A stretch of 52,010 bases of DNA from a virus: positions 1 through 52,010 of the IMG/VR virus record IMGVR_UViG_3300008629_000007; one strand, given 5' to 3'. Below the pieces are notes generated by a model that was not told the DNA's origin, searched no databases, and saw only the letters and a list, made by a program, of their open reading frames with translations. Made by a program: the position numbers and the translations under genes. This document shows, one piece after another, positions 46,922-51,329 of the stretch (position 1 is the stretch's first letter; the number at the start of each line of letters is the position of its first letter).

Positions 46922-48577
46922 GTGTTACTCAGACCTTACCAAAAGGAAGCAGTAGAAAATGCGAAACGACACCTAGAGGAATATAAAAATACTCTAGTGG
47001 TCGCGCCAACAGGCTCTGGAAAAACCATAATGCTTTCATCGTTGATTGGGGAAACCCTTAATGGTGGAAGAGCGTTGGTTTTGCAACATAGAGATGAACT
47101 GGTTAATCAGAACATGGACAAGTTCCATGCGATAAACCCAAACCTTGATACCTCTGTCGTCAACTCAAAAATCAAGGACTGGGATTCTGCAATACAGTTT
47201 GCGATGGTGCAAACATTACAGCGTTCAAAGAACTTAGAAGCTATGGTGGCTCCAGATCTGTTGGTCGTTGATGAAGCTCATCACACGACAGCTCCCACTT
47301 ACCGAAAGATAATATCCCGCGCAAAACATCTGAACCCAGATGTCAGGGTTGCTGGCTTTACTGCAACACCGAATCGTGGAGACAAAAAAGGGCTCATTGA
47401 TATTTTTAATAATGTTGCCCACCAGATAGACATTGCCCAGCTTATTGCCTTGGGTTTTTTAGTTAAGCCAAAAACATTTGTCATTGATCTTGGGGTCAAT
47501 GATGAGTTGCAAGGAGTAAGAAAAACAGCTCTCGACTATGACATGAATGAGGTTGAAAGAATTATGAACAAGCGTGTCATCAACAAAAGAGTGGTTGAAG
47601 AATGGAAAAAGAAAGCTGGAGACAGAACCACCTTGGTCTTTTGCTCAACCATAAGACACGCGGAAGAAGTCTTGCATGAGTTTAAGGAACAGGGAATATT
47701 GGCAGACATGGTAACAAGCGAAACTCCCAGCAAGAAAAGGGAAGCGTTATTGTTAGCCCTTGAGAGAGGAGAGATAAGGGTGTTGGTCAATGTTGCGGTG
47801 CTGACCGAAGGTTTTGATTGTCCACCAGTCAGTTGCGTTATCCTATTGAGACCCTGCTCCTACAAATCAACCATGGTACAGATGATTGGTCGTGGCTTAA
47901 GGATTATTGATCCAGAAGAATATCCAGACATTATAAAAACAGATTGTGTTGTCATGGACTTTGGCATCTCGGTGTTACTCCACGGAACCTTGGAAGATAC
48001 GCCTGACCTGATGGGAAAGCTGGCTACCGAAGGCGAAGCACCGACAAAAGACTGTCCAGACTGTGATGCAATTGTGCCTGCTGCCTGTAGGGTGTGCCCA
48101 ATCTGTGGTTTTGAATTTGCCACCATCAACAAGCATGGAGAGCTCGTCAAGTTTATCCTGACCGAAGTTGACCTGTTTGAAAAGTCTCCATTCAGGTGGG
48201 TTGATTTATTTGGCACAGGTAAAGCGCTGATGGCATCTGGCTTTGATGCTTGGGTTGGTGTATTTAGCTCTGGTAAACATTACGCAGCAATCGGTAGGAA
48301 GGGCAGGAACAAACCAAGAGTTTTGGCAATTGGCGAGAAGATCAATGCGTTGGCTGTTGCCGATGATTTTTTGAGAGCCAACGAGAACAACAGCAGTGTC
48401 AGGAAATCAAAACAATGGCTGAACGATACATCAACAGCAAAACAAAGGGATCATCTAAGGAATTACAACTACAACATAGGTGAGTTTAATTTTGGGTTTA
48501 CCAAGTACGATGCAATGTGCCACCTGAACTTTGTCTGGAACCGACCAGCTATTGAAAAGATTATCGGAGTCAGGTGA
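46922..48577 (+). CDS. SF2 DNA helicase with zinc ribbon
   Basis: The 551-aa protein is a DEAD/DEAH-type SF2 helicase: LLRPYQKEAVENA (Q-like), PTGSGKT (residues 29-35), DEAH (117-120), FTATPNR (146-152), then VLTEGFDCPPVSCVI, and QMIGRGLRI near 335 as motif VI. A four-Cys ribbon (CPDCDAIVPAACRVCPICGF) sits near 386-405 and a C-terminal domain follows. It would unwind recombination or replication intermediates. Start is GTG at 46922 behind AGGGGAG; an ATG at 46920 is out of frame. Confidence 0.92.
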   Translation: MLLRPYQKEAVENAKRHLEEYKNTLVVAPTGSGKTIMLSSLIGETLNGGRALVLQHRDELVNQNMDKFHAINPNLDTSVVNSKIKDWDSAIQFAMVQTLQRSKNLEAMVAPDLLVVDEAHHTTAPTYRKIISRAKHLNPDVRVAGFTATPNRGDKKGLIDIFNNVAHQIDIAQLIALGFLVKPKTFVIDLGVNDELQGVRKTALDYDMNEVERIMNKRVINKRVVEEWKKKAGDRTTLVFCSTIRHAEEVLHEFKEQGILADMVTSETPSKKREALLLALERGEIRVLVNVAVLTEGFDCPPVSCVILLRPCSYKSTMVQMIGRGLRIIDPEEYPDIIKTDCVVMDFGISVLLHGTLEDTPDLMGKLATEGEAPTKDCPDCDAIVPAACRVCPICGFEFATINKHGELVKFILTEVDLFEKSPFRWVDLFGTGKALMASGFDAWVGVFSSGKHYAAIGRKGRNKPRVLAIGEKINALAVADDFLRANENNSSVRKSKQWLNDTSTAKQRDHLRNYNYNIGEFNFGFTKYDAMCHLNFVWNRPAIEKIIGVR

Positions 48578-49518
48578 TGGTGCAATACCAATGGAAAAAA
48601 ACAACCTTGCAGGAAGAGTTTGATAGTTTTATGAGAGATGCTCTGCGTGGCAAGTTGCCCAAACAACACAAGAAAAAAGAAACAAGAAAAAAAAATTTAA
48701 CGATTGACTCAATATTAACAAATTTGGTTTCTGATCTTGTCCCCGAAAATGATGTAGCTCTTCTGCTATCTGGTGGGGTTGATAGCATGAGCGTCGGGTT
48801 TTCAGCACATAGGCTTGGCAAAAAGATCACTGCCTATACATTCAAAACAGACAAACACGATTCCTATGACTATAACAAAGCCAAAGAAGTTGCAGACAAA
48901 ATGAACTGGGATTTTGTTGGAGTTGTTATTCCTACAGAAAACTTAAAGGAAGACTTTTTTAAATTGTTGAATGAACATAATTGTATAAAAAAAACACACT
49001 TTGAATGTCTCTATCCATTTTTATATGTATATCCTAGAATAAAAGAACAATATGTGTTGTCTGGTTGGGCTGCTGATGGATATTATGGTTTGTCAAAAAA
49101 AGCGATGATAAATTATAGACACTCTTTGGAGCTCTTGAACCAATTTAGAGATGATTATTTTAAGCCTGAGAATAGAGCTGGTTATTGTTGGCATGAAAGA
49201 TTAGCCAAAAAACACAATAAAGTTTTTTGTTCTCCATATCTTTCTAACGAAATAAAAGAATTTTTTTACAGCAAAGACTGGCAAACAATCAACAAGCCAC
49301 AACAAAAGATACATGTAAGAACTTCCTTTGGTAAGTTTAAATTATTTGGAGATATTAAAAACCACTTAAACTTACAAATTGATTCACAGATCAATAAAGT
49401 ATTCGAGGCTTTAATTAGTGATGAAGAAATAAATTTCAAGAACAGAACCAGAATTATGGATATATGCAAAGACTGGATTAAGAGAAAGAATGACGATCAA
49501 TTACTTATCAATATGTAG
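48577..49518 (+). CDS. Asparagine-synthetase-like PP-loop ATPase
   Basis: The protein carries a PP-loop LLSGGVDSMSVGF (SGGVDS near residue 66) and a later VLSGWAADGYYGLSK, which corresponds to the SGxGxDExFGGY element of asparagine synthetases. These enzymes adenylate a carboxylate and join it to an amine. There is no N-terminal glutaminase domain, so it would use ammonia or an amine directly. It overlaps the helicase end and, by 29 bases, the methyltransferase start. It may modify a DNA base or another substrate; see the findings. QueC-like roles are less likely because of the Asn-synthase-type motif. Start chosen at the ATG behind CGGAG. Confidence 0.82.
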   Translation: MVQYQWKKTTLQEEFDSFMRDALRGKLPKQHKKKETRKKNLTIDSILTNLVSDLVPENDVALLLSGGVDSMSVGFSAHRLGKKITAYTFKTDKHDSYDYNKAKEVADKMNWDFVGVVIPTENLKEDFFKLLNEHNCIKKTHFECLYPFLYVYPRIKEQYVLSGWAADGYYGLSKKAMINYRHSLELLNQFRDDYFKPENRAGYCWHERLAKKHNKVFCSPYLSNEIKEFFYSKDWQTINKPQQKIHVRTSFGKFKLFGDIKNHLNLQIDSQINKVFEALISDEEINFKNRTRIMDICKDWIKRKNDDQLLINM

Positions 49519-50698
49519 CGGGATAGAGTCCGCTTCCGTAGCTTGGCATCCGCTTGGATGGAATTGCGTTGGCGTTTCTGAGATTCACCCCTTTCGTTCT
49601 GCTGTGTTAAATTATCATTATCCAGAGATTAAAAACTTTGGAGACTTTACGGAGATTACAAAAGATGACTTCAGAAAAGAAACCTACCCAGACCTCCTTG
49701 TGGGAGGAACTCCCTGTGCCAGCTTCTCCATCGCTGGACTTAGAAAAGGATTTGAAGACGATAGAGGAAACCTCGCCTTGGAGTTTATACTCTTGGCTAA
49801 TAGGCTTAAAACTTCGTGGGTTCTCTGGGAAAATGTCCCCGGCTTATTGTCCTCAGACAAAGGAAGGGATTTTGGAAACTTCCTCGGAGCGTTGGCAGAA
49901 TGCGGGTATGGGTTCGCCTACAGGATTCTTAACACTGAATTTGTCAGAACACAACGATTTCCAAGAGCACTCCCACAAAGACGAAGGCGTGTCTTCGTTG
50001 TCGGATGTCTTGGAAGCTGGAGAAGTCCCGCGAAGGTATTATTTGACGGAGAAACAATGTCGGGGAATTATCCGCCGAGCCGAAAAAAACGAGAGAACCC
50101 TGCCAGAAAACCTACTCATCGCACTGGAAGAAGCGATCAATACTTTCAAGACGCAACAGACAAAACAACCATAAGGCAAACAAGAAGCGACGGATATGTC
50201 GAAGATGACGTAGCTGGCACTATCGCTGCCAGAGATTACAAGTCTTCAACAGATTTGGTTGTGATGAGAGATAGCCAGACTGGTTCCAATGGGAAACCAT
50301 GGAACGACGATGGTGTGTCTTGGTCGTTGACTGCTCACGACAGATACACAGTGATTGAAACAAGCACCCCAGATAAGAGTGCTCGTATTTACAAAGATGA
50401 AGTTTCCCCTACCTTGAACGCCATGACTGGCGGAAACAGACAGCCCATCATTCTTAAAGAACGTACCACAGCTCCGAGAAACAGCATCATCAGACGACTC
50501 ACGCCAATTGAGTGTGAAAGGTTGCAAGGCTTTCCAGACAACTACACCCAAATACCCTACAGAGGCAAACCAAAGGAACAGGCTCCTATATCACAAAGAT
50601 ATGAAGCCTGTGGTCGAGCCATGTCAATCAACGTCATGGAATGGTTGGGAACAAGAATACAAATGGTACATGAAAGAAACAATGACAAAGCAATTTAA
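49490..50698 (+). CDS. C5-cytosine DNA methyltransferase with Arg in motif X
   Basis: The 402-aa protein has motif I SICSGIESASVAW, motif IV GGTPCASFS with catalytic Cys76, motif VI WENVPG (113-118) and motif VIII LPQRRRRVFVVG (161-172). The target recognition region lies at ~190-330, and then RRLTPIECERLQGFP. The C-terminal motif X reads QRYEACGRAMSINVMEWLG: the usual Gly-Asn is Gly-Arg (codon 50615-50617). The enzyme flips out cytosine and normally transfers methyl from SAM. The Arg may alter the cofactor. Another gene is nested in the +1-type frame at 49665-50174. It overlaps the PP-loop and CmoA-like genes. Confidence 0.92.
   Translation: MTINYLSICSGIESASVAWHPLGWNCVGVSEIHPFRSAVLNYHYPEIKNFGDFTEITKDDFRKETYPDLLVGGTPCASFSIAGLRKGFEDDRGNLALEFILLANRLKTSWVLWENVPGLLSSDKGRDFGNFLGALAECGYGFAYRILNTEFVRTQRFPRALPQRRRRVFVVGCLGSWRSPAKVLFDGETMSGNYPPSRKKRENPARKPTHRTGRSDQYFQDATDKTTIRQTRSDGYVEDDVAGTIAARDYKSSTDLVVMRDSQTGSNGKPWNDDGVSWSLTAHDRYTVIETSTPDKSARIYKDEVSPTLNAMTGGNRQPIILKERTTAPRNSIIRRLTPIECERLQGFPDNYTQIPYRGKPKEQAPISQRYEACGRAMSINVMEWLGTRIQMVHERNNDKAI
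49665..50174 (+). CDS. Nested conserved phage protein in the methyltransferase gene (169 aa)
   Basis: A second frame inside the methyltransferase gene encodes a protein with TSLWEELPVPASPSLDLEKD, then FSGKMSPAYCPQTKEGILET, SSERWQNAGMGSPTGFLTL, VSSLSDVLEAGEVPRRYYL and KQCRGIIRRAEKNERTLPEN. I recognise this as a family found next to DNA methyltransferases in many phages (the 'SSLSDiLEtGdVPqRYfL...GILRRAEkR' protein). Both frames are well conserved, so this is true overprinting. Start chosen at the ATG at 49665 with GGAG upstream. The role is unknown, perhaps linked to modification. Confidence 0.78.
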   Translation: MTSEKKPTQTSLWEELPVPASPSLDLEKDLKTIEETSPWSLYSWLIGLKLRGFSGKMSPAYCPQTKEGILETSSERWQNAGMGSPTGFLTLNLSEHNDFQEHSHKDEGVSSLSDVLEAGEVPRRYYLTEKQCRGIIRRAEKNERTLPENLLIALEEAINTFKTQQTKQP

Positions 50699-51329
50699 CT
50701 TTTCAGAGATAGATGATTTTGAAAGACACATAGATCTTTCAGTCCCTAACTTCTCCACTCTGGATAACATTTTCGTAAATGTAGCCAAGGAATACGCACA
50801 GGAAGAATCATCTGTGGTTGATTTGGGGTGTTCGACTGGTAGATTCCTGTCAAAGATACCAAAGATAAGTGGCTGTCACTACATCGGCATTGATTCCATT
50901 GACATGAAAGGCAGGAGAAAGGATTTTGGTTTCGTAAAAGGTGATTGTGAAACAGAATTAAAAAACATCGACAACATATCGGTGGTATCGTCGATGTTTT
51001 TTTTACAGTTTTTAGGTGCTCGAAAGAGAGCAAGGATATTGAGTGAGATTGCAAAAAGGATTAATTCTGGAGCGATCTTCCTGATTGCAGAAAAGGTTTA
51101 TCTTAACGATAGCAGGTTACAGCATTTAATCCACAAGCTACACATACAGGAAAAGAGAAAAAATTTTTCTGATGAAGAAATACTGGAAAAGGAATTGCAA
51201 TTGTCCATATCCATGTTTTGCAAAAAAGAAGATGAGCTGAATGAAGAATTAGGAAAATTGGGAAGCATGACGAAAGTTTGGCAAAGCTATAATTTTTTAG
51301 GCTATGTAATAAATAAAAAAAATGATTGA
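50682..51329 (+). CDS. CmoA-like SAM-dependent enzyme (carboxy-SAM synthase family)
   Basis: Start chosen at ATG 50682 (215 aa); the longer frame begins inside the methyltransferase. Residues follow E. coli CmoA along most of the length: DFERHIDLSVPNFSTLDNIF, VVDLGCSTGRF (motif I, 46-55), MFFLQFLGARKRARILSEIA, then SGAIFLIAEKVY and the end KVWQSYNFLGYVINKK. CmoA makes carboxy-SAM from SAM and prephenate. A by-eye alignment places Glu171 where E. coli CmoA has carboxylate-binding Arg199, so the product may differ. It overlaps the DNA methyltransferase by 17 bases. Confidence 0.8.
   Translation: MTKQFNFSEIDDFERHIDLSVPNFSTLDNIFVNVAKEYAQEESSVVDLGCSTGRFLSKIPKISGCHYIGIDSIDMKGRRKDFGFVKGDCETELKNIDNISVVSSMFFLQFLGARKRARILSEIAKRINSGAIFLIAEKVYLNDSRLQHLIHKLHIQEKRKNFSDEEILEKELQLSISMFCKKEDELNEELGKLGSMTKVWQSYNFLGYVINKKND

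Follow-up and report, generated by a model that had tools for sequence, protein, structure and literature searches.

The DNA analysed here (the window; 52,010 nt) is positions 1 to 52,010 of the IMG/VR record IMGVR_UViG_3300008629_000007, a 52-kb viral contig of a tailed phage in which a terminase and an SU10-type portal are present. An earlier sequence-only reading had described three overlapping genes at 48577-51329, encoding a PP-loop ligase, a C5-cytosine DNA methyltransferase (MTase) and a CmoA-like enzyme, and these were confirmed by reading frames and family profiles (Table 1); Pfam, NCBIfam and PHROGs concur on the families of the cassette genes. The ligase and MTase genes overlap by 29 nt and the MTase and CmoA genes by 17 nt. 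Because the helicase gene upstream and the DUF6511 gene downstream each overlap their neighbour in the cassette as well, the genes can be regarded as one operon-like block. For the CmoA-like gene, a start at 50682 was preferred over the mechanically assigned TTG at 50508. A profile search with TIGR00452 did not find CmoB within the window, in agreement with the earlier statement that a CmoB-like partner is missing there.

Table 1. Features of the cassette (window coordinates).
Feature	Position	Strand	Basis
CmoY-like PP-loop amide ligase, 313 aa	48577..49518	+	PF00733; 45.8% identity to S-B43 CmoY
C5-cytosine DNA MTase, 402 aa; predicted carboxymethyltransferase, CmoX-like, GTPC/Dmt lineage	49490..50698	+	PF00145, TIGR00675, phrog_116, position in Dmt-type tree
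Catalytic Cys76 codon	49715..49717	+	Alignment to S-B43 CmoX Cys98, comparison of 80 MTases
Arg376 codon, motif X "YEACGRAM"	50615..50617	+	Aligned with CmoX Arg350 and HhaI Asn304
CmoA-like Cx-SAM synthase (predicted), 215 aa	50682..51329	+	TIGR00740; fold match to E. coli CmoA

A pathway composed of these three activities has been proven in Synechococcus phage S-B43 (Yang et al, Nat Commun, December 2025; PMC12783734). There, CmoA generates carboxy-SAM (Cx-SAM), CmoX places the carboxymethyl group onto C5 of cytosine, and CmoY amidates the resulting 5-carboxymethylcytosine (5cxmC) with glycine at its carboxylate; the final modified base was detected in S-B43 phage DNA by LC-MS (PMC12783734). 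In CmoX (8YF3), the carboxylate of Cx-SAM is bound by Arg350, which replaces Asn304 of HhaI, and the engineered carboxymethyltransferase M.MpeI N374K mirrors this replacement (cited in PMC12783734). The R350N substitution did not simply revert CmoX to a methyltransferase, indicating that the arginine is not the whole story. Using the SPPC motif together with Arg350 as a filter, the authors listed 5,615 CmoX enzymes, and they described ligase clusters that differ in their predicted amine pockets (PMC12783734). The S-B43 genome (MN018232) and PDB entry 8YF3 served as our references. The sequence-only reading, which had the CmoA-like enzyme supply the MTase and the PP-loop ligase act on the carboxylate, had essentially deduced the published S-B43 pathway. 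The proposal is supported, each step matching a proven step of S-B43 and the diagnostic arginine being present; its remark that no example had been described is outdated, and its novelty was overstated because the pathway was already in print.

The window MTase matches the DNA_methylase profile PF00145 (E 5e-49) and TIGR00675 (E 6e-49). Its Arg376 falls on CmoX Arg350 in a MAFFT alignment and on HhaI Asn304 in a phmmer alignment, while Cys76, located in GGTPC-A-S-F-S, aligns with the catalytic Cys98 of CmoX and is followed, at position Cys+1, by Ala where Gln is usual. The enzyme thus combines two attributes that define CmoX, a C5-MTase fold with a catalytic Cys and an Arg for HhaI Asn304, and carries GTPC instead of the SPPC used for the published listing, which is a search criterion of the authors and not a demonstrated functional need. 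It is only about 23% identical to the proven CmoX and groups with P1 Dmt-type phage methylases, both by phrog_116 and in the tree described below. It shares the fold, the motifs and family membership with the phage P1 Dmt type; however, where Dmt-type enzymes carry a motif X Asn and a Gln at Cys+1 and are not accompanied by CmoA, the window enzyme has Arg, Ala and a CmoA neighbour. As in M.MpeI N374K, a basic residue stands in for the motif X Asn, the change that allows a C5-MTase to use Cx-SAM, but here the replacement is natural, is Arg rather than Lys and is accompanied by a second change at Cys+1. The best PDB match of the family profile was 8YF3 (E 4e-76), a match that is not independent because the profile alignment includes SPPC-type rows; phmmer with the single window sequence did not retrieve 8YF3. 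An AlphaFold model of the MTase had a good core and a target-recognition region (residues 188-333) scoring mostly under 50, and a fold search with this model ranked HhaI above 8YF3. Judged from its sequence, the window MTase is predicted to work like CmoX while lying outside the catalogued SPPC lineage. The window contains no ParB partner of the kind found in many SPPC systems.

The CmoA-like enzyme matches TIGR00740 at E 4.5e-18 and 65.8 bits, below the curated cut-off of 193 bits, and all 30 phage CmoA relatives tested match this profile. Its top sequence and fold matches are the CmoA proteins of E. coli and H. influenzae, and its AlphaFold model (pLDDT 94.5) best fits E. coli CmoA (4GEK/4IWN; TM 0.80). 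Although fold and family are alike, the window protein lacks Arg199 of E. coli CmoA, which forms a salt bridge to the carboxylate and is replaced by Glu, and neither CmoB nor a tRNA partner accompanies it in the window. The lack of Arg199 is not decisive, because the active S-B43 CmoA has no Arg at this position either; S-B43 CmoA does, however, carry an Arg four positions further along, which corresponds to Ser in the window protein. The two phage proteins are 30% identical, and relatives of the window CmoA in cellular genomes are distant (35% at best).

The PP-loop protein matches Asn_synthase (PF00733; E 3e-10), with the SGGVDS loop at residues about 65-70 and ligase homology starting at residue 43. 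Its identity to the S-B43 CmoY glycine ligase extends over 260 aa, and it is up to 73% identical to other ligases adjoining Arg-type MTases. The active-site blocks KKTHFEC, ADGYYG-x-SKK, NKP-x-QK and H-x-NLQ are alike in the window ligase and S-B43 CmoY. Among Pfam profiles it matched only PF00733 and PP-loop relatives, so that it has the attributes of a CmoY protein: an asparagine-synthetase-like domain, no glutaminase domain and homology to S-B43 CmoY. Among solved structures, beta-lactam synthetase is the nearest in sequence; this enzyme uses an amino nucleophile. Its resemblance to the S-B43 glycine ligase and the missing glutaminase domain make glycine or another amino acid, rather than ammonia, the most likely amine, a correction to the amide step of the sequence-only reading. 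The ligase also carries a 42-aa N-terminal extension (window 48577-48702) that is missing from S-B43 CmoY. Its first 30 residues have an 83% match in two other contigs (L126 and L127), neither of which has a ligase match, and the extension is possibly a fusion remnant.

Relatives of the MTase were gathered from IMG/VR and phage genomes, and 80 dereplicated enzymes were compared. Within the GTPC lineage, CmoA lay beside the MTase for 28 of the 28 dereplicated Arg enzymes and for none of the 32 Asn enzymes; counted by locus, CmoA was found at 56/60 Arg-type versus 0/33 Asn-type loci, many of these loci being close relatives of the window. Fisher p values for this coupling (1e-17 to 4e-21) ignore kinship and are descriptive only, because the tree needs just one change within the GTPC lineage. 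A search of all available sequence from 24 Asn-type contigs, the longest reaching 49.8 kb, revealed no CmoA. Four Arg loci have no CmoA next to the MTase: L017 and L019, which possess a CmoA-like domain elsewhere on the contig, and two that are on short contigs. On the contigs of L017 and L019 (L161 and L162), the CmoA-like domain (E about 5e-19) is located inside giant ORFs of 1507 and 1230 aa that resemble a phage polyvalent or virion protein, and there is no stand-alone CmoA.

The ligase was distributed differently. Of the three genes, whose joint occurrence in related phages had been suggested as a check, MTase and CmoA do go together, whereas a CmoY-like ligase accompanies only 17/60 of the Arg-type loci; the homologue is missing from 43/60 within the pieces searched, some of which end near the gene. 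PF00733 was not found in sixteen ligase-less contigs searched over their full length, four of which exceed 58 kb, leading us to reject another AsnS-type ligase in these relatives. The contigs may be incomplete, but the result suggests that in many phages the pathway ends at 5cxmC or continues through a different enzyme.

Two further arrangements were seen around the Arg site. In Staphylococcus phage vB-SscS-F1 (L004, 6464-7471), the MTase adjoins CmoA and CmoY homologues and has GSPCQ, with Gly at the Arg site; either a different way of binding the carboxylate or an alignment error may account for this. In short pieces from three Bacteroidetes phages (L151, L153 and L160), SPPC MTases carry Ser at Cys+1 and Met where the Arg would stand.

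A maximum-likelihood tree of the MTases was built without the three trait columns. The GTPC-Arg enzymes formed one group with moderate support (93/67), nested inside the GTPC-Asn enzymes, and the sister of this group, L031, has Asn, lacks CmoA and is 61% identical to the window MTase. The SPPC-Arg enzymes were separate from the GTPC-Arg group, and a single clade uniting all Arg enzymes with S-B43 CmoX was rejected (AU p = 1.7e-5), a value to be read with caution because of long outgroup branches. Among GTPC enzymes, every Arg form has Ala or Val at position Cys+1 and every Asn form has Gln; the SPPC-Arg forms have Ser or Lys there, and Ser is also found in SPPC enzymes whose Arg site is occupied by Met. 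Both Arg groups have Glu four residues before the Arg, and L031 carries this Glu alongside Asn, so that in the GTPC lineage the Glu probably preceded the Arg. In trees of the ligases and CmoA proteins, the partners mostly track the lineage of their MTase. There are exceptions; the CmoA of L037, for one, clusters with the CmoA of Moraxella phage Mcat8.

Taking the S-B43 precedent, the ligase homology, Arg376, the coupling of Arg with CmoA and the lack of CmoB together, the cassette is very probably a DNA hypermodification system of the CmoA-CmoX-CmoY type. Points that weigh against this are the absence of Arg199 from the window CmoA, the low identity of the MTase to the proven CmoX, the R350N result in S-B43 and the many Arg-type loci without a CmoY homologue. 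It resembles the S-B43 system in its three predicted activities, adjacent genes, Arg in the Cx-SAM pocket and ligase family (46%), and differs from it in the MTase, which is GTPC rather than SPPC and has another target-recognition region, in the gene order (Y-X-A in the window versus A-Y-X) and in the divergent CmoA. According to the proposed mechanism, the CmoA-like enzyme would convert SAM and (host) prephenate to Cx-SAM, the carboxylate of which would be held by Arg376 of the MTase, followed by transfer of the carboxymethyl group to cytosine C5 within a short recognition sequence. The PP-loop ligase would adenylate the carboxylate and then couple an amine, most likely glycine, and the product, 5-glycyl-carboxymethylcytosine, would block host nucleases. 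What the window proteins themselves do, which amine is joined, that a short sequence is recognised and that the modification counters restriction are all inferred.

It could be argued that the MTase is an ordinary orphan Dmt-type 5-methylcytosine enzyme and that CmoA and the ligase act elsewhere, for example on tRNA. The window MTase does lie inside the P1 Dmt-type family, in which the remaining members carry Asn and presumably act as SAM-dependent methylases; however, the changes from Asn to Arg and from Gln to Ala at Cys+1 are exactly in step with the presence of CmoA, a coupling that makes an ordinary orphan methylase unlikely. A function of CmoA in tRNA modification was rejected because no CmoB is found in the window, and the ligase is homologous to an enzyme with proven 5cxmC ligase activity, leaving the orphan explanation highly improbable. 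A departure from the proposed mechanism at its last step, with the ligase using ammonia or some other amine so that the final base is a plain amide or a conjugate with a different amino acid, appears somewhat unlikely. The differing amine pockets predicted for ligase clusters (PMC12783734) would allow it, as would the only 46% identity of the window ligase to S-B43 CmoY. Against it, the active-site motif blocks of these two ligases are the same, and there is no glutaminase domain as an ammonia supply. The amino nucleophile of beta-lactam synthetase, the nearest solved relative, also speaks against it.

The position of the Arg enzymes in the tree makes it look as though the GTPC lineage became carboxymethyltransferase independently of SPPC CmoX. 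An alternative origin, in which exchange of the motif X helix brought the Arg into the GTPC lineage from an SPPC-type CmoX, would explain the Glu at Arg-4 common to both groups and would fit the presence of homologous ligases beside both MTase lineages; moreover, such a short swap would be invisible to a tree made without the trait columns. However, the motif X flanks differ between the lineages (YEACGRAMSINVMEW versus AERIGRMVPPLMMK), the GTPC motif X matches that of the Asn-type sister L031 (RYEALGNSMSVNVME), and the Glu exists without Arg, because L031 carries it. With one clade of all Arg enzymes also rejected, we regard a helix swap as improbable. Independent change is thus the likely account: C5-carboxymethyltransferases would have arisen at least twice, through an Asn-to-Arg replacement in motif X together with loss of Gln at Cys+1, and the window would represent a second, uncatalogued GTPC/Dmt lineage that occurs in many phages with CmoA but no known ligase, which may therefore carry bare 5-carboxymethylcytosine.

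The cassette itself is a further instance of a published pathway. What appears to be new is the CmoX-like lineage, uncatalogued because the SPPC filter of the paper excludes it, and a census limited to SPPC would miss a whole lineage of predicted carboxymethyltransferases. The Asn-to-basic switch made in the laboratory seems to have occurred naturally as well, on another scaffold. The window MTase and L031 form a natural before/after pair, and a minimal route from methyl- to carboxymethyltransferase becomes directly testable. For DNA labelling, the GTPC enzymes also provide scaffolds that would recognise other sequences.

A second long ORF was observed in the +1 frame inside the MTase gene (window 49638-50174). 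No relevant description of an overlapping gene in cytosine methyltransferases turned up in a search of the literature. The second frame was not seen in SPPC MTases; it runs for about 160-180 codons in most of the GTPC/Dmt-type MTases examined, including phage P1 dmt (L157). In most genes, with the exception of some GC-rich ones, it exceeds the length obtained by synonymous codon shuffling (p up to 0.04). Its conserved tail reads SLSD-x-LE-x-G...YYL[ST]-x-K-x-C-x-GILRRAE-x-x-x-K-x-LP, and the frame looks like a genuine overlapping gene.
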